A DNA stretch of 23,963 bases, taken from positions 1 through 23,963 of the IMG/VR virus record IMGVR_UViG_3300037485_001400; one strand, given 5' to 3'. Both the position numbers and the translations under genes were made by a program. This stretch comes from a virus. This document shows positions 609 through 17,557 of the stretch, in pieces (positions within the stretch are counted from its first letter, which is position 1; every line of letters begins with the position of its first letter). Below the pieces are notes generated by a model. That model worked only from the letters and a program-made list of their open reading frames with translations. It was not told the origin of the DNA and did no database searches.

Positions 609-1397
609 TTACCGTTTTTCCCTTTTCGGTGACTGCACCGGAGGGGCTTTCTTTTCGATACAATCTTCAAGGCCGAGCTCGGCGAGTAGCTCCTTCTCCT
701 CATCGTTGAGGTCGTCCTCGTCATACGTCCAGTCAGCGATTTCGAGTTCCATATCCTCGATAACGTCTGTGCTACGTTTCTTCCCCTTCATTTCTTTGGC
801 CAAATCCTGACGGCCGATGAAATTTGTGAGCTTCGTTTTTAATACCGTATCTTCGGCCTGTACTTCTTCTTTTTTTGAAGCAACAGGTTTGACTTCTGCA
901 CCATCGGTTGAAACAGTGTTATCAACTTCATAACACTCGACAACTGTGACATTTGTGAATCCATCTTCGCCTTCACCCGAATACGCGACCTTAAGTTTAC
1001 AGTCGTACGCATATTTCGACGCGAATGATCCGATGAGAGGTTCGAGATCGGCAGGATCTGCCGGGCATGCTTCACCGGTAACTGTTTTGACGTACTGACG
1101 AATTTTTCCTGTACCGAATTCGGAACTTCCGTACATCATATTGTCGACTATCATTTTTCCTTTGAATTCACCTTCAATGACGATATGCTCACGCGTAACC
1201 ATGAGATTACCGTTTTTCGAAAGACGGAACTCGGCAAGATTGAGTCGTGCAATATAAGTGCCGGCAGGAACTTTGTCAAAACTTGAATTCTCATACTGCT
1301 CACCAGCGTCGTATGTTTCACGACCTTTTCTCAACAACTCTGCGAAATTCGAACTTTGTGCAGGTGTTGCACTTCGTACTGCTCGTTCTTTAGTCAT
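609..1397 (-). CDS. DUF669-like single-strand DNA-binding partner protein
   Basis: A 262-residue protein. Residues 40-95 hold the pattern VPAGTYIARL, then REHIVIEGEFKGKMIVDN, which resembles the core of phage DUF669 proteins. These are thought to bind single-stranded DNA and to work with Sak4-type recombination ATPases. The gene directly follows such an ATPase, which supports the call. The C-terminal third is strongly acidic (about residues 205-245, with DEDD and DEEKELL) and ends in a basic tail. Acidic tails are common in single-strand-binding proteins, where they contact partners. AAAGGAG lies six bases before the ATG. The gene is visibly richer in G and C than its neighbours, which may reflect codon choice for high expression. 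Confidence 0.65.
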   Translation of the reverse strand: MTKERAVRSATPAQSSNFAELLRKGRETYDAGEQYENSSFDKVPAGTYIARLNLAEFRLSKNGNLMVTREHIVIEGEFKGKMIVDNMMYGSSEFGTGKIRQYVKTVTGEACPADPADLEPLIGSFASKYAYDCKLKVAYSGEGEDGFTNVTVVECYEVDNTVSTDGAEVKPVASKKEEVQAEDTVLKTKLTNFIGRQDLAKEMKGKKRSTDVIEDMELEIADWTYDEDDLNDEEKELLAELGLEDCIEKKAPPVQSPKREKR

Positions 1398-1450: not shown

Positions 1451-2335
1451 CTAACTTCTTGGTTTTCTACTAACTCTGGGAAGACCTCCATCTACTGAAC
1501 TTGTCTTTACCGTAGTTTGCGGTTTCACGAGTTTATTGTAAAATGCATCATTGTACCTTTTGTATGCTGATTTCTCAGGAATAGACTCATCGGTAAAATC
1601 AAAAGGTATAGACTTAATACGTGAACCATCAGTATACAAAAAATTCTGAGAGGTTCGTGTACCAGCTTCAACAGTGTTATCTCCACGTATGACTAACTCG
1701 CGCTCCCCTCGTTCATCGTACTGTATATGCACGATAATATCAGCAAAAGCATTGTAGAATTTTGTTGCTTGACCGCCAAGTTGAACAGTTAATTTCTCGT
1801 ACTCAACTCCCTGACGAGTCTTCAGAGTTTTCATCTCCGTATGAGCGGTAACCCCAAGACCAAATCCTGCATTAAGTATCTTCATTTGTTCTGTACGAAA
1901 CTCCCTTTCGATAAACTTCCACGCCGTTCCCCAAGCTTCATCTCTTGGAGAAGTCAGGTTCATCGATCGAAGGCAGAAGTCATAGCACCACTCATACGCC
2001 ATATACCCTGTATCTATTATTACCGTTCTGCAATAATCAGGTTCAGATTCGAGAAGGTACACAATCTTTTTGAAATCTTCCCAAGAGCTGATATTCACCT
2101 TCTTACTTGAAATACTAATCCCTCCAGGTTCACAAAATATGAAGAACGGATCTTCGAACTCTTTGAACAAGCTCGATTTTCCTATCTTTCTATCACCAGA
2201 GACAAGATGGATAAATTTACTTATATCAGTTTCAATTTCTCCATTTGCCCTCGGAAGTTCTAATCTTGATACAATACCACGTTGAACTGGTTCAGCAACG
2301 TGGCCTCCTCGTTTTGTTCTTGAAACTAACGGCAT
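1451..2335 (-). CDS. Sak4-like RecA-fold recombination ATPase
   Basis: A 294-residue ATPase. The P-loop reads GDRKIGKSS (residues about 47-55) and a Walker B strand reads TVIIDTG (about 104-110). GVTAHTEM near residue 163 sits where phage proteins of this type carry a sensor. The layout matches AAA_24/Sak4-type phage nucleotide-binding proteins, RecA-related ATPases that promote single-strand annealing with a single-strand-binding partner. The DUF669-like gene downstream is the expected partner. The start is set at 2335, because AGGAG (2342-2346) lies six bases before that ATG but abuts the ATG at 2341. The gene overlaps the upstream nuclease by 44 bases, so the two are probably translationally coupled. 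The C-terminal 30 residues are basic and low-complexity. Confidence 0.82.
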   Translation of the reverse strand: MPLVSRTKRGGHVAEPVQRGIVSRLELPRANGEIETDISKFIHLVSGDRKIGKSSLFKEFEDPFFIFCEPGGISISSKKVNISSWEDFKKIVYLLESEPDYCRTVIIDTGYMAYEWCYDFCLRSMNLTSPRDEAWGTAWKFIEREFRTEQMKILNAGFGLGVTAHTEMKTLKTRQGVEYEKLTVQLGGQATKFYNAFADIIVHIQYDERGERELVIRGDNTVEAGTRTSQNFLYTDGSRIKSIPFDFTDESIPEKSAYKRYNDAFYNKLVKPQTTVKTSSVDGGLPRVSRKPRS

Positions 2336-3284
2336 ATCCATCTCCTAATTCTTTGAAAAGTGTATCAGCTTGAGCATATCCAGCTATTGATTCAGATGAA
2401 CAAGCTTCGAGAAATTGGCAAGCTGAAAAGTCAAGACACCTTGTCGAATTTCTGTATACTTCATTATTGTCTATCGAATACCTGATCTGTTTCATTATAA
2501 CACCAAGTTCTTTTTTGAATTTGGCCTTATCCTCTTCAGTGTACGATATAATATACCTTTTGAAATAATGACTCGGATTTTTTCTTATATCACCTTTCAG
2601 CTTTTTTCTATAATCATCAAAATCATCTTGAGTTATTTTTGCTCTCGTCTCCGGCCTCCTTATGACATTATGATACGACCCATTTATTTTGATCTTGTCG
2701 GCTGCTTCAACACCCATTGTATATATCTGGTGTTGAAAGTCAAATGACAACATTTTAGGCATAGCATTTTCATTTATTCTTGAACTGGTTTTATGATCAA
2801 GTGTGTAATTAAACCCGTCGAATTGAAGGCCAAGGTCAATCTTCATTCTATATTTAATTCCGTCGATTACTACTACAACTGGCCTCTCGACAAATAACAC
2901 TTTCGATTTTTTGAAATCATTTTTGTATTGCTTCACATACTCTTCGATAAGAACCTCTACTATTAAGGCGTCAATCTGCACTTCCAACGACGACTTACCA
3001 CTGATATCATTATCTTCACTATTTATAAATAAATCGAGCCAAACCGAAACAGTTCCGTTGTCAGGAGTTTCCCCAGTTACCTTATACCAATTGTATACCT
3101 TTTCAATTATATGATGAAACATAGTCCCGAAACTTGTTGTACGATTATCACCACCTGGTAGATACCACCTCTTTGCCTTAAATAAAAATTTTGCCGGACA
3201 AGTAAGGTATGTTTTGATCATAGACTGAGTAATCCCGATTTCTTCAAGATTATACTCTTTATCAAATTCTACACCACAGAACAT
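2292..3284 (-). CDS. Cas4/RecB-like PD-(D/E)XK nuclease with Fe-S cysteines
   Basis: A 330-residue nuclease. The motifs come in family order: helix FGTMFHHIIE (52-61), the metal aspartate in MKID (D150), LDHKT (D163, K165), and QHQIY (184-188, the QxxxY motif). Four cysteines fit an iron-sulphur cluster: C29 in LTCPAKF, and C283, C289 and C295 near the end. This matches the Cas4, AddB and phage PDDEXK_1 exonucleases, which resect DNA ends to give single strands for recombination. No CRISPR genes are nearby, so a role in phage recombination or replication is more likely than spacer acquisition. AAGGAGG lies just before the ATG. The gene overlaps the glycosylase gene by 16 bases and the ATPase gene by 44. 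Confidence 0.85.
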   Translation of the reverse strand: MFCGVEFDKEYNLEEIGITQSMIKTYLTCPAKFLFKAKRWYLPGGDNRTTSFGTMFHHIIEKVYNWYKVTGETPDNGTVSVWLDLFINSEDNDISGKSSLEVQIDALIVEVLIEEYVKQYKNDFKKSKVLFVERPVVVVIDGIKYRMKIDLGLQFDGFNYTLDHKTSSRINENAMPKMLSFDFQHQIYTMGVEAADKIKINGSYHNVIRRPETRAKITQDDFDDYRKKLKGDIRKNPSHYFKRYIISYTEEDKAKFKKELGVIMKQIRYSIDNNEVYRNSTRCLDFSACQFLEACSSESIAGYAQADTLFKELGDGYAVSFKNKTRRPRC

Positions 3285-3775
3285 ACTGCCTCCTTAAGTG
3301 ATCTTATTGTATGGAAGTAATAAGGACTCGCCTTGTTCCCGGTCCTCAATATAAACGATGGATGTAGTATTGTTTTGCAAGGTTTTAGCAATTTCTTGTA
3401 GTAAACTTCAGCTTCTTTACCAACAAGTATTGTAATTTTTGGCCTAACAGCTTCATATATTTTCATTATGTTAGGCATACAAGCAAACACCTCATCCTCT
3501 TCAGGCTCTCTGTTTTTTCCACCGAGTTTATCAGTAGGATGACAAAGAACAATATTTGAAATATAATATGTAAACTTAATCTTTGTTTCAGTTATAAATG
3601 TATCAAGTAATTTACCACTAACACCATAGAATGGAATACCAGTCACGTCTTCAGAATTGCCTGGACCTTCACCTAAGAATAAAACATCCGCTGGGAGAGA
3701 TCCTTTACCAATGCAGATTCTATGCCGCGTTTTCGCCAAGCCGCACCTTGCGCACTCTATTCGCAAATTCCTCAT
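3269..3775 (-). CDS. Uracil-DNA glycosylase, family 4-like (Fe-S)
   Basis: A 168-residue protein with the family 4 layout. Motif A reads GEGPGNSED (35-43), followed by GIPFYGVSGKLLD; the usual family sequence is GEAPG, so one residue differs. NIVLCHP (74-80) and REPEEDEVFAC (89-99) follow, with HPS at 138-140 near the end. Cysteines C8, C11, C78 and C99 match the four iron-sulphur ligands of this family. The enzyme should remove uracil from DNA and start base-excision repair. The start ATG directly follows the ligase stop codon (TAAATG), and the end overlaps the nuclease start, so the ligase, glycosylase and nuclease are probably made together. The lack of KRRIH argues against UdgX. Confidence 0.82.
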   Translation of the reverse strand: MRNLRIECARCGLAKTRHRICIGKGSLPADVLFLGEGPGNSEDVTGIPFYGVSGKLLDTFITETKIKFTYYISNIVLCHPTDKLGGKNREPEEDEVFACMPNIMKIYEAVRPKITILVGKEAEVYYKKLLKPCKTILHPSFILRTGNKASPYYFHTIRSLKEAVCSVV

Positions 3776-4588
3776 TTAAATGAGACCTTTAAATTGATCC
3801 AAGGTGCAATCTTCAACCCGTTTGTCATCTCGCATTCTATTGAATGCAGGATGCCGGAGTTTCCCTGACTTGAAAACCTTCTTTCCTGTAAACTGTGCAA
3901 CTCCCCCCTCATAGTACCCTGGATGCGCGTACATATCGGCTTTCATGTTGTCATCGAACCCAGATGATGTACCAATACTCTCAACCTTACCAGTTTCTTT
4001 ATTGTATAGACCTATTCTAACCTGATTACAGGCCCAGCCTGAAAGCGTACTGGCCCCACTTCTAATACATTCCATAATCACGTAGTCGCCAGTGTACTCT
4101 TTTTTGTACCTGAAGAAAGAACCATCGGTAAGATCTTTAAGAACGTACCCTTCGTGTCCAGCTGCGATCGCATCAAAGTTATTCACAATGAACATCGGGC
4201 TGTAGTTGTTTATAGCAACGAACCTTGACGATAGACTCTTCGGGATCGACTTTTTATTAGTCGACCAGAACACCACCCTGTCCCTATACGGACTATCGTT
4301 TGCCCACTGTGTACCAAATATGTACTCCCCTATGACAATCATATCAGATGGTGTACTAATGAGTTGAGATCTGAACAAACCGTCTTTCGTGAACAGACCG
4401 CTCGGTGTAACTGCACACCACCAACCGTCATACTTAAGCTGAACAACTTCATTAGATTTTGCTGCTCTACAATGTCTAATGAAATCGTCCTTACCAAGCG
4501 ACATGTAATTTGTCTCGTCAGCAAGGGTACCACTATGAATTTTTGTAATGAGATCACTACAGGGCTGATCGAGTAATGTAAATTTCAT
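3776..4588 (-). CDS. ATP-dependent DNA ligase (small phage type)
   Basis: A 270-residue nucleotidyltransferase. The catalytic lysine motif is KYDG (52-55). It is followed by TKDGLFRS, the glutamate in VIGEYIFG (E88), HEGYVLKD (145-152, motif IV) and RYKKEYTG (160-167, motif V). The C-terminal HPAFNRMRDDK (246-256) matches the end of the OB fold in ATP-dependent ligases. The enzyme should seal nicks in duplex DNA. At 270 residues it is near the minimal size, with no extra DNA-binding domain seen. GGAG lies about eight bases before the ATG. It opens a run of four repair and recombination genes with no gaps between them, ahead of the glycosylase, nuclease and ATPase. Confidence 0.85.
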   Translation of the reverse strand: MKFTLLDQPCSDLITKIHSGTLADETNYMSLGKDDFIRHCRAAKSNEVVQLKYDGWWCAVTPSGLFTKDGLFRSQLISTPSDMIVIGEYIFGTQWANDSPYRDRVVFWSTNKKSIPKSLSSRFVAINNYSPMFIVNNFDAIAAGHEGYVLKDLTDGSFFRYKKEYTGDYVIMECIRSGASTLSGWACNQVRIGLYNKETGKVESIGTSSGFDDNMKADMYAHPGYYEGGVAQFTGKKVFKSGKLRHPAFNRMRDDKRVEDCTLDQFKGLI

Positions 4589-6359: not shown

Positions 6360-6638
6360 CTACAATCCACATTGACAATGATAGTATTTAATATCAACCA
6401 CAATTTTTTGAGTTCTTGTCCTAAACGACTCTAATTTTCTTCCACAGTCATTGCATTCATCCTCAAAGTAAACTTCAAGGATATCAGTTTTACTAACGAA
6501 CTCTTTGTAAATGTCAATAGCTTTATCCTTAAATCTCGATCTCTGTGCATTATCCATCTCGACATCAAAACTTAGCACAAGGACATTCGGATAAAGCCCG
6601 TGAGCCAAATCTCCTTTATCATGCACGAACAACTTCAT
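6360..6638 (-). CDS. Small unknown protein with zinc-ribbon-like cysteines
   Basis: A 92-residue protein starting MKLFVHDKGDLAHG. The first half is a hydrophobic strand and a helix (VLVLSFDVEMD, RFKDKAIDIYKEF). The second half holds two cysteine pairs, ECNDCGRK (about 61-65) and YHCQCGL at the very end, spaced as in a small zinc ribbon. AGGAAG lies before the ATG, and the start overlaps the stop of the upstream resolvase gene (ATGA), so the two are coupled. Its stop is only 11 bases before the next start. I cannot name a family; a nucleic-acid-linked role is suggested only by its neighbours. Confidence 0.65.
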   Translation of the reverse strand: MKLFVHDKGDLAHGLYPNVLVLSFDVEMDNAQRSRFKDKAIDIYKEFVSKTDILEVYFEDECNDCGRKLESFRTRTQKIVVDIKYYHCQCGL

Positions 6639-7174
6639 CGTTTCTTCCTACTAAAATGACCCAAATGGTAAAGACCTATAGCAACGGCATCAGTACAATG
6701 AGACGACCCGAAATCTTTTCCGCAAACTCTCGTCACCTTCTCTTTCGTCTCATCTTTATCAAGATTACCTTTCCACTCTTGGGCGTTTACTATATGAACT
6801 TTTATACCATGTATCAGCATAAAGGCCATATATGAACCAATCAAATATGCAAGGGTGAACGTATGCCCTTGCTTTGTCGCTATAAGCGATTTATCCATAT
6901 CCTTCTTATTATTACCATAATAGTACCCTGACCATAATGCAGCACCCTCGATTACTGCTTCAGTTACTCCATGTAAATCTTCAAGAACTCTTGCAAACTC
7001 GAAGGTCATATATTTCAATTTTGATTCCTTACTTAAAGGTCGCATACTATTAGGCAAATTAATAGCGTGCACCACTGGAGAAAGCCCAGAATCTGTCCAT
7101 ACAGCTATTCCAGTGTTGTAACCAGGATCTATACTAAGCAGCCCATGCTGCAATTGCACTCTTGGTTTTCTCAT
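6635..7174 (-). CDS. RuvC-like Holliday junction resolvase
   Basis: A 179-residue RNase H-fold endonuclease. The acidic metal ligands are visible: D16 in LLSIDPGYNTG, E76 in AVIEGAAL, and the C-terminal HCTD (H159, D162) in CTDAVAIG. A basic stretch with the RuvC-like pattern QEWKGNLDKDETKEKV lies at 132-147. These match phage and bacterial RuvC resolvases, which cut four-way junctions made by recombination or replication. The first 10 residues before the fold come from a 41-base overlap with the upstream gene. No good binding site lies before the ATG at 7174, so a later TTG start, about seven residues in, is possible. The resolvase completes the recombination set encoded downstream. Confidence 0.82.
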   Translation of the reverse strand: MRKPRVQLQHGLLSIDPGYNTGIAVWTDSGLSPVVHAINLPNSMRPLSKESKLKYMTFEFARVLEDLHGVTEAVIEGAALWSGYYYGNNKKDMDKSLIATKQGHTFTLAYLIGSYMAFMLIHGIKVHIVNAQEWKGNLDKDETKEKVTRVCGKDFGSSHCTDAVAIGLYHLGHFSRKKR

Positions 7175-9093: not shown

Positions 9094-9129
9094 ACTTCCT
9101 CCCACAGAAGTTAGTTGTTACTATACCTT

Positions 9130-9158
9130 AAGACTTTACTGTATTCTTTAGAAGTCTT
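9130..9158. other. Inverted repeat in the control region
   Basis: AAGACTT (9130-9136) and AAGTCTT (9152-9158) form a seven-pair stem with a 15-base loop. It lies just before the 47-residue gene on the minus strand. It could fold in the leader RNA or act as a binding site; it has no strong GC stem and no T-tract. Confidence 0.3.
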
Positions 9159-9203
9159 TAGGCCGTTTATTCTGTTTGTTTCTACCTTCTTTTAGCCTTG
9201 TTT

Positions 9204-9217
9204 ATACATACATACAT
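9204..9217. repeat. Tetranucleotide repeat (ATAC)3
   Basis: Three tandem ATAC units followed by AT lie in the AT-rich control region. It may be a simple slippage-prone repeat; no coding frame uses it. Confidence 0.6.
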
Positions 9218-9411
9218 CTAACCTACCCCATAAATATACCTTACATACACATAAAGAACAACTAAAAAAATAGACAGTCTAACATATTTTTAGCGGTTAT
9301 TAGGCTAAATCTACGTAAGTTATTGTATTTTATAGACTTACAAAGACCTATAAAAACAGGCCGTTTCTCTATTATTTGTAAATTTTACAGAAATGGACAG
9401 GTTTATCTACA

Positions 9412-9432
9412 TAAAACGCCTTAAAAACGCCT
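9412..9432. repeat. Iteron-like repeat, copy 1 of a 21-base direct repeat
   Basis: A 21-base unit made of two half-units, TAAAACGCCT and TAAAAACGCCT, recurs exactly at 9480-9500, 68 bases away. The half-units are 10 and 11 bases long, close to one helical turn, so bound proteins would line up on one face of the DNA. This is typical of iterons or clustered operators. Confidence 0.6.
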
Positions 9433-9448
9433 AATATACGCTACTCTG

Positions 9449-9464
9449 TACCTACCTACCTACC
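9449..9464. repeat. Tetranucleotide repeat (TACC)4
   Basis: Four tandem TACC units lie between the two copies of the 21-base repeat. They lie in no coding frame I can support and could vary in number by slippage. Confidence 0.65.
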
Positions 9465-9479
9465 TATAGAATAGAGCCT

Positions 9480-9500
9480 TAAAACGCCTTAAAAACGCCT
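9480..9500. repeat. Iteron-like repeat, copy 2 of a 21-base direct repeat
   Basis: An exact copy of the 21 bases at 9412-9432. Here the run is longer, because GAGCCT just before it adds a third GCCTTAAAA-type unit (GCCTTAAAAC, GCCTTAAAAAC, GCCTTATTTT). Confidence 0.6.
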
Positions 9501-9537
9501 TATTTTAAACATAGAATTATTAGGTAGTATATACTGT

Positions 9538-9567
9538 ATTATAAAGGATAAGCTTATTTTTTATCAA
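9538..9567 (-). promoter_or_regulatory. Sigma-70-like promoter in the control region
   Basis: On the minus strand TTGATA (9562-9567) and a perfect TATAAT (9538-9543) are separated by 18 bases. Transcription would start near 9530 and run through the iteron-like repeats toward the 47-residue gene. It is placed just after the late-operon terminator, as expected for an independent early transcript. The leader would be more than 400 bases long, which is unusual and could leave room for a structured RNA. Confidence 0.5.
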
Positions 9568-9670
9568 TAGATATATAGATAGGTATACAGGGTATTTACT
9601 TTAAGGCATTCTTATGTCAAATCGGCTTTTTTACATAGGTAAATTTGAAGATAATTCTTTAAAATAAAGA

Positions 9671-9699
9671 AGGTTATAGACGGATGATTTCTATAACCT
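9671..9699 (-). terminator. Rho-independent terminator of the late genes
   Basis: AGGTTATAGA (9671-9680) and TCTATAACCT (9690-9699) form a perfect ten-pair stem with a nine-base loop. On the minus strand it is followed by TCTTTATTTT, a T-rich tail. It lies 40 bases after the stop of the holin-like gene, so it probably ends the long leftward late transcript. The stem is AT-rich but long. Confidence 0.7.
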
Positions 9700-9738
9700 C
9701 CCGAAGCAGCCAACCATTCGCGGCACGAAAAATGACTG

Positions 9739-9975: not shown

Positions 9976-12900
9976 CTACAGAATTGATCTCCACGCACCA
10001 CCTACAAATTCATACAAAGCACCAACTGCTGCCAATGGAATATTCGTTGACGGCGTAGCTCCTTTCAGGTCGTAAGAGTTAGCCCCTCCCCCAGCGGTGA
10101 GTAGCATACCACTTCCAGTACCTTCACCGGTAGCTTTAATCCCACTACCATTGCCACCAGAAGAAGTTGCAACCAAAGCATCACCGGCACTGTTTACGAT
10201 ATTAAGCTTTTTCAGATTCAGGGTTGCATTATTACCAGTAGTAAGTTGACCGTCTATCGATACTATGTTAGCATCAACTGTACCTGCACCACCAGCATCT
10301 GATAACGCTTTACCAGCTGTACCAGCTGTCGTATGACCCGACAGAGCTTCATCCCACACAGCATCAGCAATTGCAGATGGAGATGAACCTGCACTCGCAT
10401 CTATCAACGCCTTACCTGTACTACCGGCAGTTGAATGACCGGAAGTAGCTTCGTCCCATACACCATCTGCTATTCCATCAACAGTAGGAACCGCAGCAGT
10501 TATACTGGACTTCATTGTAGCGGTAAAATCCCCATTAGTTGGTGCATTAGTCAGATTAGTAACTGTCGTTATAGTGCCGGCAGTAATGTTAGTTGGCGTT
10601 GCTAACCCATTTTGAATCTTGGTAACAGCATCTGCCTTAACGGATGCAGCATTGATAGCATCAGTAGCAATACTTGTTGAAGTTATACCATTAGCTGCAA
10701 CACTTCCGACACTACCTCCTACGTTTCCGGTAACTGATCCAACTGCACCCGTAACTGACGCTGGCGTAGCAGCATTTAAAGATGCCTTCTGTAATGCACC
10801 GAAGTCTATATTACTTTGCGTAACTACATTGACACCTATTTGTGCAGACGAAGTTGATACTGCTGCACCAGCAACATCTACCATGTCAGACTTGACAAGA
10901 GCACTTACACCGGTGCCTGTATAATTCACAGGCTGAGTTGTACCCTGATTTGCATTGATCGTCGTGATACTTGTCGCAGCAACATTGTTCATATTCTTCA
11001 CATTAACATCAAGGATACCCGCAGTCGCTGGAGACGAAACCGCCGTCCCGAGTATCTTGGTCAAATTAGCATCAGCGGTCGGTGTTGAAGCAGTGCACGC
11101 AGTTGTAATACTTGCTTTTTCAGTTGCATTAAAGTCAGTTGTACCGGCACTCGTTGCATTCTTTACTGACTTAATGTTATTCGAGCCATCAAATTGCAAT
11201 TTATCAGTCTGAGTTTTTATGTCAGATGATTTTGCATCAAGGTTTGTACCTACTATATAACCGGCAGTCCCGGTGCCATAGGCTCCAGGTACAGCAGTTG
11301 ACCAAGGATCACCAGCTGCGGCCGCACTATTAAGTTTTGCACCGGTAGTACCAGCTGTCAAATGACCTGCGATAGCCTCGTCCCATACCGCATCAGCTAT
11401 AGTCGCTGGAGAAGAACCACTTGCAGCATCAGCTAAGGCTTTTCCAGATGATCCAGCCGTAGTATGCCCACCTAATTGTTCATCCCAGACAGCATCAGCT
11501 ATATCAGCTACAGCTGGCACACCTCCTGATGCTGATACTACATTCACGCCTATCTGGGCAATCGACGTACTTACTGAAGCACCAACTATATCACGTAAAT
11601 CAGCAGGCACTTTTCCAGCAGAGTGAGTTGTTAAAGTTATACCGTCAACCTGGACGAGATTCGATTTTACAACACCGCCCGAAACGTCAACTTGACCTGT
11701 CCCGCCACCGACAGATAGAAGCACACTCGTACCTATATCTCTTGCAGCAACAGGGGTAGTCCCACATTGAACCATGTTGACACCTAACTGAGCAATTGTA
11801 GTTGACACAGCAGACCCAGCAATGTACCTTAAATCACCAGGCATCATACCTACAGCATGAGTTGTAAGATTACTGCCGTCTATTTGTACAGTATTAGAGG
11901 CCACTACTCCAGTGTTGAGTGATACTTGACCAGTCCCGGTCCCTGGGGAGAGAAGGACACTCGCTCCAATATCTCTTCCGGTTTGGGCAGTTCCGCCGAT
12001 GTTCACGGCGTTGACACCAATTTGAGCAGCCGATGTACTTACGGCAGCTCCTGCAATATCTACCATATCGGATTTCACATAAGCGGTTGCACCAGTACCA
12101 GTGTAATTGGTAGGTTGAGTGGTTCCTTGATTAGCATTGACAGTAGTTACTGAAGTAGTTGCAACATTATTAATATTCTTTACATTGACATCCGGTATTC
12201 CAGCAGTCGCAGGAGTTGCAACTGTAGTGCCATTCCATTTGGTGACATTTACAGCTTGATCGGCGGCCAACGAATACCCTGTTTTATCATTATTAATACC
12301 AACTTCAACATCACCAAGTCCACGAATAATGTAAACTGACGTATTATCGGGTGTAGTGCCCCAACCATCGGCTACTGTAGCAAGTTTTGACGCACCAACA
12401 TATTGCTTAATGACTCTTGCTTGACCCGCTCCAGTTCCTCCAACTATTTGAACGATAGCCCCATCATAAAAATCATTAACTGCTGAAGTCCCAGCCCTAA
12501 GTGTGATAGTTGTTCCTGCTCCTGTTTGTGCTGTACCCGAATCGCAAAGAGCCATATTTTGACCCATCGTTCCGTCAGCAACAAAACTCGATCGAGCCGC
12601 ACCCCAAACACCAGCAGCTATTTCAGTTACTGCATCGGCAGCTAATTCACTTGCACCAATCGCATCCGCAGCTATAGCAGTAGCATCTATCGCGCCAGCA
12701 GCAAACTTAGCACTCGTGATAGCTCCGGTTGCAATCGAAGTTGCTGTAATAGTATTAGCACCAAGTGTGCTGATCGTCGGAGTTGAAGCTGTACAAGCGG
12801 TAGTAACTGAAGTCTTCATCGTTGCAGTTAGATCGCCATTTGTAGGAGCATTCGTTAAATTAGTAACTGTGGTAATTACTCCAGCAGTGATATTTGTTGG

Positions 12901-13740
12901 GGTTGCAAGCCCATTTTGGATCTTAGTTACTGCATCTGCTTTAACCGAAGCTGCATTAATTGCATCAGTTGCTATTGAAGTGGCTGTTATTCCATTTGCC
13001 GCAATAGATCCAACTGCACCTGTGACACTACCTACTGCACCAGTAACCGACGCTGGAGTGGCCGCGTTTAATGAGGTTTTCTGGAGTGCACCAAAATCAA
13101 TATTGGCCCGAGTCACTACGTTGACTCCAAGCTGAGCACTTGCAGTATTAACTGCTGCACCAGCGATATTAACCAGATTGACTCCAAGCTGAGCAGTCGA
13201 TGTCGAAACAGCAGCATTCGCGATATTCTTCAAGTTTACATCAAGAATACCAGCTGTTGCTGGAGTCGATACAGCCGTTCCAAGAATCTGAGTTGCATTG
13301 GCTTTGACTACACCCGATGTGACGTCTAACTGACCAGTACCCGTACCACTGGAGAGAAGAACACTTGCACCAACGTCTCTTCCAGTGAGCACCGTACCAG
13401 CGAGATGACTGATATTAGCCCTTCCAAGAGAGAATCTTGCAACCACAGTTCCGACAACCGATACTGCATTTACTGTTCCAGTGGTCACTACAACTGAAAA
13501 GTCATTTCCAGTAGCGTAGAAGGTGCCATCTGCTGACGTGTCTACCACCACATGGTGCATTCCAGTTCTTGCATCATAATCGACCGTTAGTGTCACACCT
13601 GATGTACTTTCAGTAGTTGAGTTTTTATAAACTGAAATAACAGGAGTGCCAGCCAATGTTATAGGTGTCCCGTCCGCCTGATGAGTATTAAAGTCAAAAG
13701 ACAGAGTTGTCCCTATTGCTCTATCACCTAAGTTTACCAT
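9976..13740 (-). CDS. Giant repetitive tail fibre or virion surface protein
   Basis: A 1254-residue protein rich in Ala, Thr, Gly, Val and Asn. Residues 1-107 form a beta-rich domain (TTLSFDFNTHQADG, PVISVYKN, GMHHVVVDTSADGTFY) like an Ig-type or baseplate-attachment fold. The rest is built of repeats: VWDExxxGHxTAGxxGKALxDA at about 751, 785, 1094 and 1128, many copies of AAVSTSxAQIGVNVV, and GRDxGASVLLSxGTGTGQ blocks. About 100 residues (213-311) recur at 977-1079. VWDE..GHTTAG and AGDPWSTAVPGAYGTGTAGYIVG motifs are widespread in phage fibre-like proteins. The end, ALYEFVGGAWRSIL, may be a tip. AAAGGA precedes the ATG. Adsorption to the host or fibre structure is the likely role; the receptor is unknown. 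Confidence 0.7.
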   Translation of the reverse strand: MVNLGDRAIGTTLSFDFNTHQADGTPITLAGTPVISVYKNSTTESTSGVTLTVDYDARTGMHHVVVDTSADGTFYATGNDFSVVVTTGTVNAVSVVGTVVARFSLGRANISHLAGTVLTGRDVGASVLLSSGTGTGQLDVTSGVVKANATQILGTAVSTPATAGILDVNLKNIANAAVSTSTAQLGVNLVNIAGAAVNTASAQLGVNVVTRANIDFGALQKTSLNAATPASVTGAVGSVTGAVGSIAANGITATSIATDAINAASVKADAVTKIQNGLATPTNITAGVITTVTNLTNAPTNGDLTATMKTSVTTACTASTPTISTLGANTITATSIATGAITSAKFAAGAIDATAIAADAIGASELAADAVTEIAAGVWGAARSSFVADGTMGQNMALCDSGTAQTGAGTTITLRAGTSAVNDFYDGAIVQIVGGTGAGQARVIKQYVGASKLATVADGWGTTPDNTSVYIIRGLGDVEVGINNDKTGYSLAADQAVNVTKWNGTTVATPATAGIPDVNVKNINNVATTSVTTVNANQGTTQPTNYTGTGATAYVKSDMVDIAGAAVSTSAAQIGVNAVNIGGTAQTGRDIGASVLLSPGTGTGQVSLNTGVVASNTVQIDGSNLTTHAVGMMPGDLRYIAGSAVSTTIAQLGVNMVQCGTTPVAARDIGTSVLLSVGGGTGQVDVSGGVVKSNLVQVDGITLTTHSAGKVPADLRDIVGASVSTSIAQIGVNVVSASGGVPAVADIADAVWDEQLGGHTTAGSSGKALADAASGSSPATIADAVWDEAIAGHLTAGTTGAKLNSAAAAGDPWSTAVPGAYGTGTAGYIVGTNLDAKSSDIKTQTDKLQFDGSNNIKSVKNATSAGTTDFNATEKASITTACTASTPTADANLTKILGTAVSSPATAGILDVNVKNMNNVAATSITTINANQGTTQPVNYTGTGVSALVKSDMVDVAGAAVSTSSAQIGVNVVTQSNIDFGALQKASLNAATPASVTGAVGSVTGNVGGSVGSVAANGITSTSIATDAINAASVKADAVTKIQNGLATPTNITAGTITTVTNLTNAPTNGDFTATMKSSITAAVPTVDGIADGVWDEATSGHSTAGSTGKALIDASAGSSPSAIADAVWDEALSGHTTAGTAGKALSDAGGAGTVDANIVSIDGQLTTGNNATLNLKKLNIVNSAGDALVATSSGGNGSGIKATGEGTGSGMLLTAGGGANSYDLKGATPSTNIPLAAVGALYEFVGGAWRSIL
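10504..10812 (-). repeat. Intragenic repeat, copy B (fibre residues 977-1079)
   Basis: This part encodes a near copy of fibre residues 213-311, with about seven substitutions and a four-residue insertion (GGSV-type) in the Gly/Val run. The DNA differs at about a quarter of positions in the stretch I compared, mostly at third codon positions. Confidence 0.7.
12808..13104 (-). repeat. Intragenic repeat, copy A (fibre residues 213-311)
   Basis: This encodes NIDFGALQK through TNLTNAPTNGDLTATMK, matched closely by residues 977-1079 of the same protein. Copy A lies nearer the N-terminus. The two copies are separated by about 665 residues of other repeats. Confidence 0.7.
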
Positions 13741-14816: not shown

Positions 14817-15614
14817 TTAAACAAAAGCAACGATACTGCCTTCTACTGGTGTAAATGATAACCACGATGATCCGTGATACTGATAAACATTATCTTTGAC
14901 CCACCCATTTGCTGTAGCTGACGCAATATACCTATCACCTTCTGTTGGTGAACCTGGCAAACTCGAAGTTGGATCAAAAAATCCAATTACAGCGTCGATC
15001 CAATATTTACTTGCAATATTTGAATATTTTGCTTTCTTTTTCACATTAGTTGCATCAGCATCCTCAATTAGAAATTCATCATTTGGATACACCGTAGTTT
15101 TCTCGGTTAGAGCATTTATCTCCGCTGGAAGAGAGGTTATCAATGTCCCGTCAGCTAATTTAGAATTGACATTTGCAATCGAATCCGCAATATGCTTAGA
15201 CCCACCAAAATAATGTGGATCGTCAACAGTGACATTTGCAGTTTTTGTACTTCCATTAGCAGTTGTAACTTTCCATCCAGTATGATCATCATATTGCAGT
15301 GTATCATTTGAGTCGAGAGCAACTTTTACTATCTGATAATTAGTTGAACTCACCTTTAATGAGATTGTCACAGAAGAAATAACCGTATCTTTATTAAAGA
15401 CACTTATTCTTTTTATCTGCCTTTCAGTTGCAGCCACTGGAGGAGAAGTAATTTCTACCTCGGCCGCACCAGTAGATAATTCTTCATACTCATTACCAGG
15501 TATGAATGTAGTAGTTGTGTGGTCTGCGAAGTCGACTGTAACTTGCAGATTAGAAGTCGTTACCGTAACGTCTATTTCTGCAACTAACGATTTTGATGTT
15601 GTATCAAGTAACAT
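14817..15614 (-). CDS. Tail fibre protein with DUF2793-like C-terminus
   Basis: A 265-residue protein. The first 110 residues are beta-rich (LVAEIDVTVTTSNLQVTVDF). A middle segment reads EKTTVYPNDEFLIEDAD, then KKKAKYSNI, a pattern common in phage fibre and appendage proteins. The last 55 residues, with FFDPTSSLPGSPTEGDRYIA, NGWVKDNVYQYHGSSW and FTPVEGSIVAF, match the DUF2793 domain found in many phage fibre and baseplate proteins. AGGAG lies five bases before the ATG. It sits after the tail-tip genes, where fibre genes usually lie. Confidence 0.72.
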   Translation of the reverse strand: MLLDTTSKSLVAEIDVTVTTSNLQVTVDFADHTTTTFIPGNEYEELSTGAAEVEITSPPVAATERQIKRISVFNKDTVISSVTISLKVSSTNYQIVKVALDSNDTLQYDDHTGWKVTTANGSTKTANVTVDDPHYFGGSKHIADSIANVNSKLADGTLITSLPAEINALTEKTTVYPNDEFLIEDADATNVKKKAKYSNIASKYWIDAVIGFFDPTSSLPGSPTEGDRYIASATANGWVKDNVYQYHGSSWLSFTPVEGSIVAFV

Positions 15615-15622
15615 AGGTTCTC

Positions 15623-15856
15623 CTAACCAAGGAAAATTCTGGACATAATTTGTTGATGTGTAAGACCTGCACCGGTCGATACTATAACTTTTTCACCAGG
15701 GTCGCCAGTTACTACAAAACCATCACCAAGGGTTAGAGGTTCATACTCTTTTCCTCCAGTGGTGGACGTTTTGATAAGTAGAGTACCTTCTGCTGGAATT
15801 GGATCTTGCAGAATAACTCTGTTTGCAAGTTCTTTTGTTACTGTCGTTTCAACCAT
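15623..15856 (-). CDS. Short virion-associated protein
   Basis: A 77-residue protein starting MVETTVTKELANR. It is beta-rich, with a central PAEGTLLIKTSTTGGKEYE and GDPGEKVIVSTGAGLTHQ, and ends IMSRIFLG. AAAGG lies six bases before the ATG. It lies between the tail-tip gene and a fibre gene, three bases after the former. A small adaptor or fibre-linked protein is plausible; no family is recognised. Confidence 0.6.
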   Translation of the reverse strand: MVETTVTKELANRVILQDPIPAEGTLLIKTSTTGGKEYEPLTLGDGFVVTGDPGEKVIVSTGAGLTHQQIMSRIFLG

Positions 15857-15859
15857 AAT

Positions 15860-17557
15860 TTACCTTTGCCAGCAATCAATTTTTAATTGTCCGAGACTGT
15901 TCTGTTCGACTGCTGTTTTCCACAAACTTGTCAACCTAATTATGCTGTACCCATCAACTGTAAAATCTGTACCAAGAATTAATTCACCAGCATTAGATTG
16001 ACCATCAGTCCACATTGCTCTTACTCTTGAAGTGTTAGTAAACGGAGTGACTCTCATATTTGATACATACGAATAAGCATTGAACGTGACTGTTTCGTAC
16101 GACACTGGGAGAACCCTTTGTGGAACCTCCCCAAGCCATCCTGGAGTTTTCGAATAATTGGAATCGAACAGGTCTTCAAACGCCTGCACAAGTGACAATC
16201 TTATATTCATATCATTTATGTCACCGAAATCTATATTAGTGACTCTAAAATTACCATAAAGACTGTATTCATCACTATAAATATTGATCAGATCCCCTGG
16301 CCTCAGGTCGTAGTGTTGCCTATTTACTGTACATTCAACAAATACCCTTGGAAAACTAAATCTTTGCATTATTTCATTTAATCGACAAAAAGCAATTTCA
16401 GACCTAATGAACATAGTCAGGTCAATTTTCTTTTTGTTGATAAATCCATCAGCCATTAAAATTGCTGCTTCATTCTTAATCGTAATAACTTTCTTTTCGT
16501 AATTGAATGTACTATCAATAAACTCACCAATGAAAACATTTGGTACATCTCTCCAAGTTTCTCTCGTAATCATTAGTGAATTAAATTCAGAATCAGTTAT
16601 TGACCCTTTATTTATCGCATCTCTATCATACAAATTTGCAAGATAGAATGTATCATTAAATGAATAAAGAAAAACATCAGTAGCATCCCTTATATCGTCA
16701 AGGATTTGCCTAACTGAGACAGGTTCTATGATTGCAAAATTAATTCCATACAGTCTTCCAGCGGCTTCAGCCTCGGGTGTACCAAAAGAATCACCAACTG
16801 CATTGAACGATACGAGATCAATTTTTGAAGGATCTATCCCCATCATAAATTGAGAGTCGGTTAGAATATCATAAATCACAGCAGCTGGATTATTTCCAAT
16901 ATACTCATCGAAAAATTCAATTGCTGAATAATTGATAGGAAGAGGTTCCAGATTTCTCTTTACAATAAATTCGACTTTAGGCATAGTACCACCTGAAGTC
17001 GCAGGTATCCGGGAATCATATTCAAATGGTAATCCACCAACTGTATGAATTGATTTATCAAAGAACATGTGGGCTATACCCTTCATCTTGACAGGATATA
17101 GCAATTCATTCTTTAATGGTTCAGGAATATAATCGGAAGTACCATCATTAAATTGAGAAAACACCCACTGGGGAAAATGGGTAGATGGATCCGATAAATC
17201 AGAATACATATACTTGTCATTTATTAAAACTTGAGGAACAGACTGATCAGGATCATCAAAGTAAACTTGTCCTTTGCATATCAATAACCACGCGTACTCT
17301 GCCATATAGCACGTATCAACAAGCGAATAAATCTCAGTTTTCTCATTTCTCTTTGTTATTGCCGTCTCCATCTTAAGATATACGTACCTACCTTTTACTT
17401 TTACTTTGCCATAGGTAACTGGGACAGGCAATCCTTCAACATTAGTCGGATATGACGGTTTAGTTGCTCTATACAAGTCGTTGATCTGCACACCAACCAC
17501 ATTAGTAGACCCACCACTATTCCCTAATCCTAAAAATCCAAATGTACTTATCATCAT
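15860..17557 (-). CDS. Tail-tip / hub protein, J-like (Phage-tail_3)
   Basis: A 565-residue protein. The early GLPVPVTYGKVKVKG (42-56) and NPAAVIYDILTD (223-234) are typical of the phage tail-tip attachment proteins related to lambda J and the Phage-tail_3 family. DLRPGDLINIYSDEYSLYG near residue 420 is the usual later hub-domain motif. Such proteins close the tail tube, contact the host receptor, and carry fibres. At 565 residues it is shorter than lambda J and lacks its long fibronectin-like C-terminal part; the separate fibre genes downstream may do that job. It overlaps the L-like gene; ATG occurs twice in a row, and the second (17554) has the better spacing to GAGG. Confidence 0.78.
   Translation of the reverse strand: MMISTFGFLGLGNSGGSTNVVGVQINDLYRATKPSYPTNVEGLPVPVTYGKVKVKGRYVYLKMETAITKRNEKTEIYSLVDTCYMAEYAWLLICKGQVYFDDPDQSVPQVLINDKYMYSDLSDPSTHFPQWVFSQFNDGTSDYIPEPLKNELLYPVKMKGIAHMFFDKSIHTVGGLPFEYDSRIPATSGGTMPKVEFIVKRNLEPLPINYSAIEFFDEYIGNNPAAVIYDILTDSQFMMGIDPSKIDLVSFNAVGDSFGTPEAEAAGRLYGINFAIIEPVSVRQILDDIRDATDVFLYSFNDTFYLANLYDRDAINKGSITDSEFNSLMITRETWRDVPNVFIGEFIDSTFNYEKKVITIKNEAAILMADGFINKKKIDLTMFIRSEIAFCRLNEIMQRFSFPRVFVECTVNRQHYDLRPGDLINIYSDEYSLYGNFRVTNIDFGDINDMNIRLSLVQAFEDLFDSNYSKTPGWLGEVPQRVLPVSYETVTFNAYSYVSNMRVTPFTNTSRVRAMWTDGQSNAGELILGTDFTVDGYSIIRLTSLWKTAVEQNSLGQLKIDCWQR

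Follow-up and report, generated by a model that had tools for sequence, protein, structure and literature searches.

What does a free-standing uracil-DNA glycosylase (UDG) do in the middle of a row of phage recombination genes? This question was raised by the IMG/VR virus record IMGVR_UViG_3300037485_001400, whose 23,963 bases, with the genes on the minus strand, make up the stretch analyzed herein (the window), and in which an earlier note had described a cassette of DNA ligase, UDG, nuclease, and Sak4-like ATPase genes followed by a DUF669-like partner. We found that a RuvC-like resolvase, the UDG, a Cas4/AddB-type exonuclease, Sak4, and a DUF669 single-stranded DNA-binding protein (SSB) constitute a set conserved among distant relatives, usually with PolA and a primase-helicase downstream. 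With moderate confidence, we regard this row as a replication-recombination operon, in which the UDG would clear uracil at or behind the phage fork. The genes concerned, named according to Pfam, PHROGs, and NCBIfam, are as follows.

6635..7174, minus strand: RuvC-like Holliday-junction resolvase (phrog_1770, E 2e-9), with which the conserved unit of the relatives opens at its 5' end
3776..4588, minus strand: probable ATP-dependent DNA ligase, divergent (phrog_114, E 1e-10)
3269..3775, minus strand: family-4 (UDGa-type) UDG (PF03167, E 6e-21, and family-4 hidden Markov models)
2292..3284, minus strand: PD-(D/E)XK exonuclease, Cas4/AddB type (PF12705, E 4e-11; phrog_1218, E 2e-25)
1451..2335, minus strand: Sak4-like RecA-fold protein, putative annealing recombinase (AAA_24; PF13479, E 7e-24; phrog_124, E 5e-26)
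609..1397, minus strand: DUF669/SSB-like protein, probable Sak4 partner (PF05037, E 8e-5; phrog_7778, E 1.5e-7)

The UDG is a protein of 168 amino acids (aa) encoded by a stand-alone gene, and contains a four-cysteine set of the [4Fe-4S] cluster type (C8, C11, C78, and C99), whose aligned cysteines were invariant across the UDG alignments, together with the complete motifs GEGPGNSED (motif A), IPF, NREP, and HPS. Its AlphaFold2 (AF2) model (pLDDT 93) was superimposable on Thermus UDGa (1ui0) over 162 residues (Z 23.1, rmsd 1.8, 31% identity), and on the UDG part of the phiLo polymerase (9qhs) over 145 residues (Z 14.8, rmsd 2.7). The cysteines, the motifs, and the predicted fold thus point to an enzyme of the family-4 type, which would be expected to excise uracil. 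The protein shares the four-cysteine set and the GEGPGxxED, PF, NRxP, and HPS motifs with the Thermus/Thermotoga UDGa enzymes, but is shorter, phage-encoded, and approximately 31% identical. Since its score against TIGR00758 (UDG_fam4; E 2e-27, 95.7 bits) was under the curated NCBI cut-off of 125.3, which is a naming rule and denotes no biochemical trait, it was classed among the family-4-like UDGs as a short and divergent form, and not as a typical member. An assignment to UdgX was rejected, because KNREP replaces the KRRIH loop, placing asparagine at the position of the reactive histidine, and the score was below the TIGR03914 cut-off. Nor does the window encode a UDG:PolA fusion, the UDG being a separate gene and no PolA having been found within the window.

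To place this gene in context, relatives were collected with alignments, as single-sequence IMG/VR scans with Sak4, UDG, the tail protein, ligase, or DUF669 returned no relatives. A UDG alignment search gave 455 viral relatives, 80 of which were kept, and two of these (L020/L100 and L047/L101) carried the block. Most of the short fecal 'phage' UDG matches (MT83xxxx) were set aside, as they group with or near bacterial-type UDGs and lack such neighbors. A Sak4 query alignment built from the window and these two loci, involving no selection for UDG, recovered eight loci, and the identity of Sak4 to its relatives ranged from 25 to 60% (60% for L151 and 55% for L152). The order RuvC - UDG - nuclease - Sak4 - DUF669 was present in L100, L101, L151, L152, L154, L155, and L158; L153 starts within the nuclease gene and runs on to PolA, which is directly next, and L156 and L157 likewise start within the nuclease gene, with approximately 3 kb separating it from Sak4. 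The UDG gene lay directly upstream of the nuclease gene in all five testable loci found with the Sak4 query, which was blind to UDG. The preservation of the row, without its ligase, in distant phages suggests that uracil removal is an integral part of the replication of these viruses.

The genes farther downstream also fitted this picture. PolA comes right after DUF669 in L151, L152, and L154, and a primase-helicase-like gene, so named by eye from a zinc motif, follows PolA in L151, L152, L154, and L101, and lies two genes further on in L100. In these relatives PolA begins at the exonuclease domain without any UDG part, and exactly one UDG was present on each of the eight relative contigs except the incomplete L153. 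The PolA and primase-helicase of the window phage presumably lie beyond the end of the fragment. Two side observations were made in the closest loci: just past PolA, L151 has a reading frame (11461-11685) in which the ten-residue unit TALYGLIRPY is repeated several times, and L152 carries, at 15143-16752, genes resembling QueC, QueD, and QueE by eye, hinting at 7-deazaguanine DNA modification in this close relative of the window phage.

The proposed cassette therefore needed redrawing: UDG, nuclease, Sak4, and DUF669 are kept together in relatives, and RuvC and PolA belong with them, but the contigs of eight relatives, several of them fragmentary, revealed no ligase. The window ligase is thus not part of the conserved unit but a local addition. 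It was also the weakest family call, as phrog_114 covers only residues 139-263, the Pfam DNA_ligase_A_C (OB domain) match was under the cut-off (E 0.0012), a PDB sequence search gave no match, and comparison with two neighbor-phage ligases produced a weak C-terminal profile match only. Its motif I reads KYDGWW instead of KxDGxR, having tryptophan where arginine is usual; GEY, EGYVLK, and RYKK were judged by eye to be present, and an AF2 model built without an alignment reached a pLDDT of 36. Sak4, on the other hand, possesses Walker A (GDRKIGKS) and Walker B (TVIID) motifs in keeping with a RecA-like AAA_24 core protein, which may act in annealing as other members of its family do. The DUF669 profile match exceeded the gathering score, the gene directly follows Sak4, and its product is 54% identical to that of the same-position gene of L151.

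The close packing of the five genes, transcribed in the order ligase, UDG, nuclease, Sak4, and DUF669, was confirmed to be real. The ligase/UDG junction is TAAATG, the UDG and nuclease genes overlap by 16 bases, and the nuclease and Sak4 genes overlap by 44 bases from the second Sak4 ATG (2335) or by 50 from the first (2341), the former start being preferred because of an AGGAG site six bases upstream of it. Chance was excluded, since the UDG - nuclease - Sak4 - DUF669 order recurs in distant phages. The length of the overlaps, however, was rejected as a sign of special coupling, because overlaps are ordinary across the window (12 of 32 same-strand junctions, six of them by at least 10 bases and four of those six outside the cassette). 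Against a reference of all ATGs on the strand (median -2.8, 10% mark -6.0), the Shine-Dalgarno energies were strong for the nuclease (-12.1), DUF669 (-8.2), and Sak4 (-7.3), fair for the ligase (-5.9), and weak for the UDG (-3.4). Since only the UDG has a weak site of its own, the earlier proposal of a fixed stoichiometry through translational coupling was not supported; the UDG alone seems to rely on coupling, namely to the preceding ligase.

In the operon that we favor, the exonuclease would resect DNA ends, the SSB would coat the resected strand, Sak4 would anneal the coated strand, RuvC would resolve the joints, and PolA together with the primase-helicase would extend and restart forks, as suggested by the respective families. 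The UDG would excise uracil put in by PolA or arising from cytosine deamination near the fork, and the resulting abasic sites may then pass to the recombination machinery of the operon or to the host. The enzymatic activities, the physical association of the proteins, and the flow from uracil excision to recombination are what we infer from these families and their arrangement. As for the source of uracil, dCMP deaminase and thymidylate synthase make and use dUMP. HD nucleotidase and ThyX-like genes are present in L100 and L101, the latter gene having been tested against Pfam for L100, L100 also has a dCMP deaminase gene, and in a second group of phages, in which the UDG is fused to PolA, dCMP deaminase and thymidylate synthase genes usually adjoin the fused block. 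Such dUMP-related genes near PolA (dCMP deaminase, ThyX/ThyA-like) could give the reason for a uracil problem.

Alternatively, the UDG and the iron-sulfur (Fe-S) nuclease might form a dedicated pathway, as the earlier note had supposed, in which uracil is converted to abasic sites and then to nuclease-made ends for Sak4 recombination. The arrangement lends itself to such a pathway: in all standalone-UDG loci except L100 the UDG gene lies directly 5' of the nuclease gene, with which it shares 4-31 bases (as many as 58 if the earliest start is taken), and every downstream gene is a recombination gene. A link between uracil metabolism and an AddAB-like nuclease has also been published, the mycobacterial dUTPase reportedly binding AdnAB (PMC13309787). 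The nuclease itself, however, shows in alignments a RecB-type active site (H57, D150, and D163-x-K165) and belongs with the Cas4/AddB-type exonucleases rather than with the AP endonucleases. It has four cysteines, one N-terminal (C29) and three C-terminal (C283, C289, and C295), so that four-cysteine sets are indeed present in both window proteins and match the conserved cysteines of relatives. Whereas the UDG cysteines are kept in all eight free UDGs, those of the nuclease are present in the window, in L151 and L152, and throughout the fused group, as is their C-terminal part in the incomplete L153, L156, and L157, but are lost in five of ten relatives (L154, L155, L158, L100, and L101). As these five retain the cysteines of the UDG without those of the nuclease, the two Fe-S sets do not represent a joint trait, contrary to what had been supposed. 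Moreover, L014, L146, and L147 have the same nuclease family without an intact adjoining UDG, and the fused group retains the nuclease where its UDG-type domain has decayed. We thus consider a dedicated UDG-to-nuclease pathway quite unlikely.

In the fused group, which includes isolates of Pseudomonas, Serratia, and Yersinia, PolA bears the UDG as its N-terminal domain and precedes the nuclease and Sak4 in L004 (MW202455), L005, L057, L075, L084, L091, L095, L096, and L097, and DUF669 comes next in these loci wherever the contig is not cut off. PolA with a UDG-type domain, nuclease, Sak4, and DUF669 likewise succeed one another in the isolates PMBT14, Serbin, P744, and Lebethron, and in most of them kinase, pyrophosphatase, thymidylate synthase, and deaminase genes precede the block. 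In these four and in STP12, the domain retains the four cysteines and matches UDG profiles, but lacks GE(A/G)PG, PF, and NRxP, and is thus predicted from its sequence to be catalytically dead. The PolA genes bearing this decayed domain are located as follows.

L141, 3446-5950: PMBT14 PolA
L142, 3390-6011: Serbin PolA
L143, 3399-6005: P744 PolA
L148, 3461-5977: Lebethron PolA
L005, 3914-6418: STP12 PolA

Desulfofustis MD02, Polewnik, Muddy, and Margaret also have the order PolA - nuclease - Sak4, with one or two small genes intervening in some; because they have lost the cysteines as well and a Pfam match, itself weak, was obtained for Polewnik alone, a UDG-domain remnant in these four is tentative. 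The loss of the UDG motifs from PMBT14, Serbin, P744, and Lebethron, which kept the nuclease, Sak4, and SSB, further disfavored the dedicated pathway discussed above. It instead raises another explanation, namely that the UDG serves the phage polymerase complex chiefly as a structural or processivity subunit, like poxvirus D4, with excision being secondary. Both the fusion to PolA in this group and the five domains that retain cysteines without GExPG, PF, and NRxP are in line with such a role, as are the vaccinia UDG, reported to be a polymerase processivity factor, and a herpesvirus UNG reported to bind replication factors independently of catalysis (PMC10253040; PMC10312458). In contrast, the core catalytic motifs are preserved in all eight standalone UDGs, with AF for PF in L152 alone, and these intact motifs argued for selection on excision in the group of the window. 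We rate a mainly structural role as unlikely.

The phylogenetic analyses set the two arrangements apart. The module UDGs fell into two clades, one of the free forms (99/96) and one of the fused forms (98/98), and the Sak4 tree split the same two groups at 100/100, the Sak4s of the window group being nearer to those of phages without an adjoining UDG (unrooted tree; AU p 0.228). An AU test holding the free and fused UDGs together gave a marginal p of 0.041, and 0.136 in an earlier, differently sampled set. These trees suggest two separate recruitments of UDG to the block, and with these AU values they disfavor the free UDG as a simple fission product of UDG:PolA. On the other hand, that each UDG group is a single clade and that the rejection of a common origin is marginal would also suit a gene order reflecting nothing but common descent of the replication module, with the UDG functionally unlinked to its neighbors. 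We regard this as highly improbable, since the order is preserved even where the proteins are 25-30% identical, whereas the ligase varies, as do the small genes that separate RuvC from UDG. A bolder reading of the history, which we rate as less likely than not, is that UDG was recruited at least twice to an exonuclease - Sak4 - SSB block, once free and once fused to PolA, and that in several fused lineages the fold outlasted first the motifs and then the cysteines.

A role outside replication was also considered, in which the UDG would attack host DNA or shield phage DNA from host enzymes that load it with dUTP or uracil. Host nucleotide-depletion and deaminase defenses exist. Furthermore, glycosylases take part in phage-host conflict (PMC11078745). 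Nevertheless, the position of the UDG is fixed within the replication block in two phage groups, and not among accessory genes, which makes such a role very unlikely.

Several points weigh against the replication-recombination operon with a uracil-clearing UDG that we favor. PolA is absent from the window, and its presence in the window phage is deduced from relatives. The 24 kb of the window yielded no dCMP deaminase, and thymidylate genes were not the object of a dedicated search there; besides, nucleotide-metabolism genes are common in phage replication regions, and the link to dUMP may therefore be loose. Finally, since the fused domain of five isolates lacks the motifs, uracil excision is not the sole reason to keep the fold.

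Each part of the row belongs to a known family. A UDG domain on a phage PolA has been published for PaBG gp205 (PMC7412058), and the structure of a phage UDG:PolA has been solved for Thermus phage phiLo (PDB 9qhs). The fusion phages (the PaBG gp205 group, phiLo, MW202455, and PMBT14) resemble the window in having a family-4-like UDG domain in the replication region, and MW202455, PMBT14, and others in having it directly before nuclease - Sak4 - DUF669. The window UDG differs in being a separate gene of another clade, shorter before the HP motif and with a few extra residues before NRxP, and PolA of its relatives lacks the UDG domain. Likewise, the pairing of Sak4 with its SSB in recombination is established, an ssb adjoining as many as 80% of sak4 genes, and a DUF669 SSB beside Sak4 has been published for HK620 (PMC5928155). 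The DUF669 gene after Sak4 in the window resembles this pair, to which the present row of genes adds RuvC, the UDG, and a Cas4-like nuclease, as well as PolA in the case of the relatives. The nuclease shares the RecB motifs and the arrangement of one N-terminal and three C-terminal cysteines with Cas4/AddB-type phage exonucleases (phrog_1218), but its spacing is CX5CX5C, compared with the CX2CX5C usual in the fused group, and the cluster is dispensable in sister phages. The literature searched, which left most subscription papers outside its coverage, held no paper with both Sak4 and uracil-DNA glycosylase, and within it neither the free UDG of this block nor its conserved position seems to have been described.

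Elsewhere in the window, approximately 630 bases between the early and tail genes (9106-9738) contain no listed minus-strand gene of more than about 50 aa and are possibly a control region. The tail region encodes a repetitive 1254-aa protein (9976-13740), which is probably a tail fiber or similar.

In two phage groups, the arrangement described here links the removal of uracil to the core of replication and recombination. The UDG domains of these groups provide a natural series from free and intact to fused and decayed, which makes it testable whether phages keep UDG to excise bases, to build the polymerase complex, or to feed recombination. If the bolder reading of the history given above is true, the UDG fold would be a recurrent part of phage replication-recombination complexes, also in a non-catalytic capacity, as in poxviruses.

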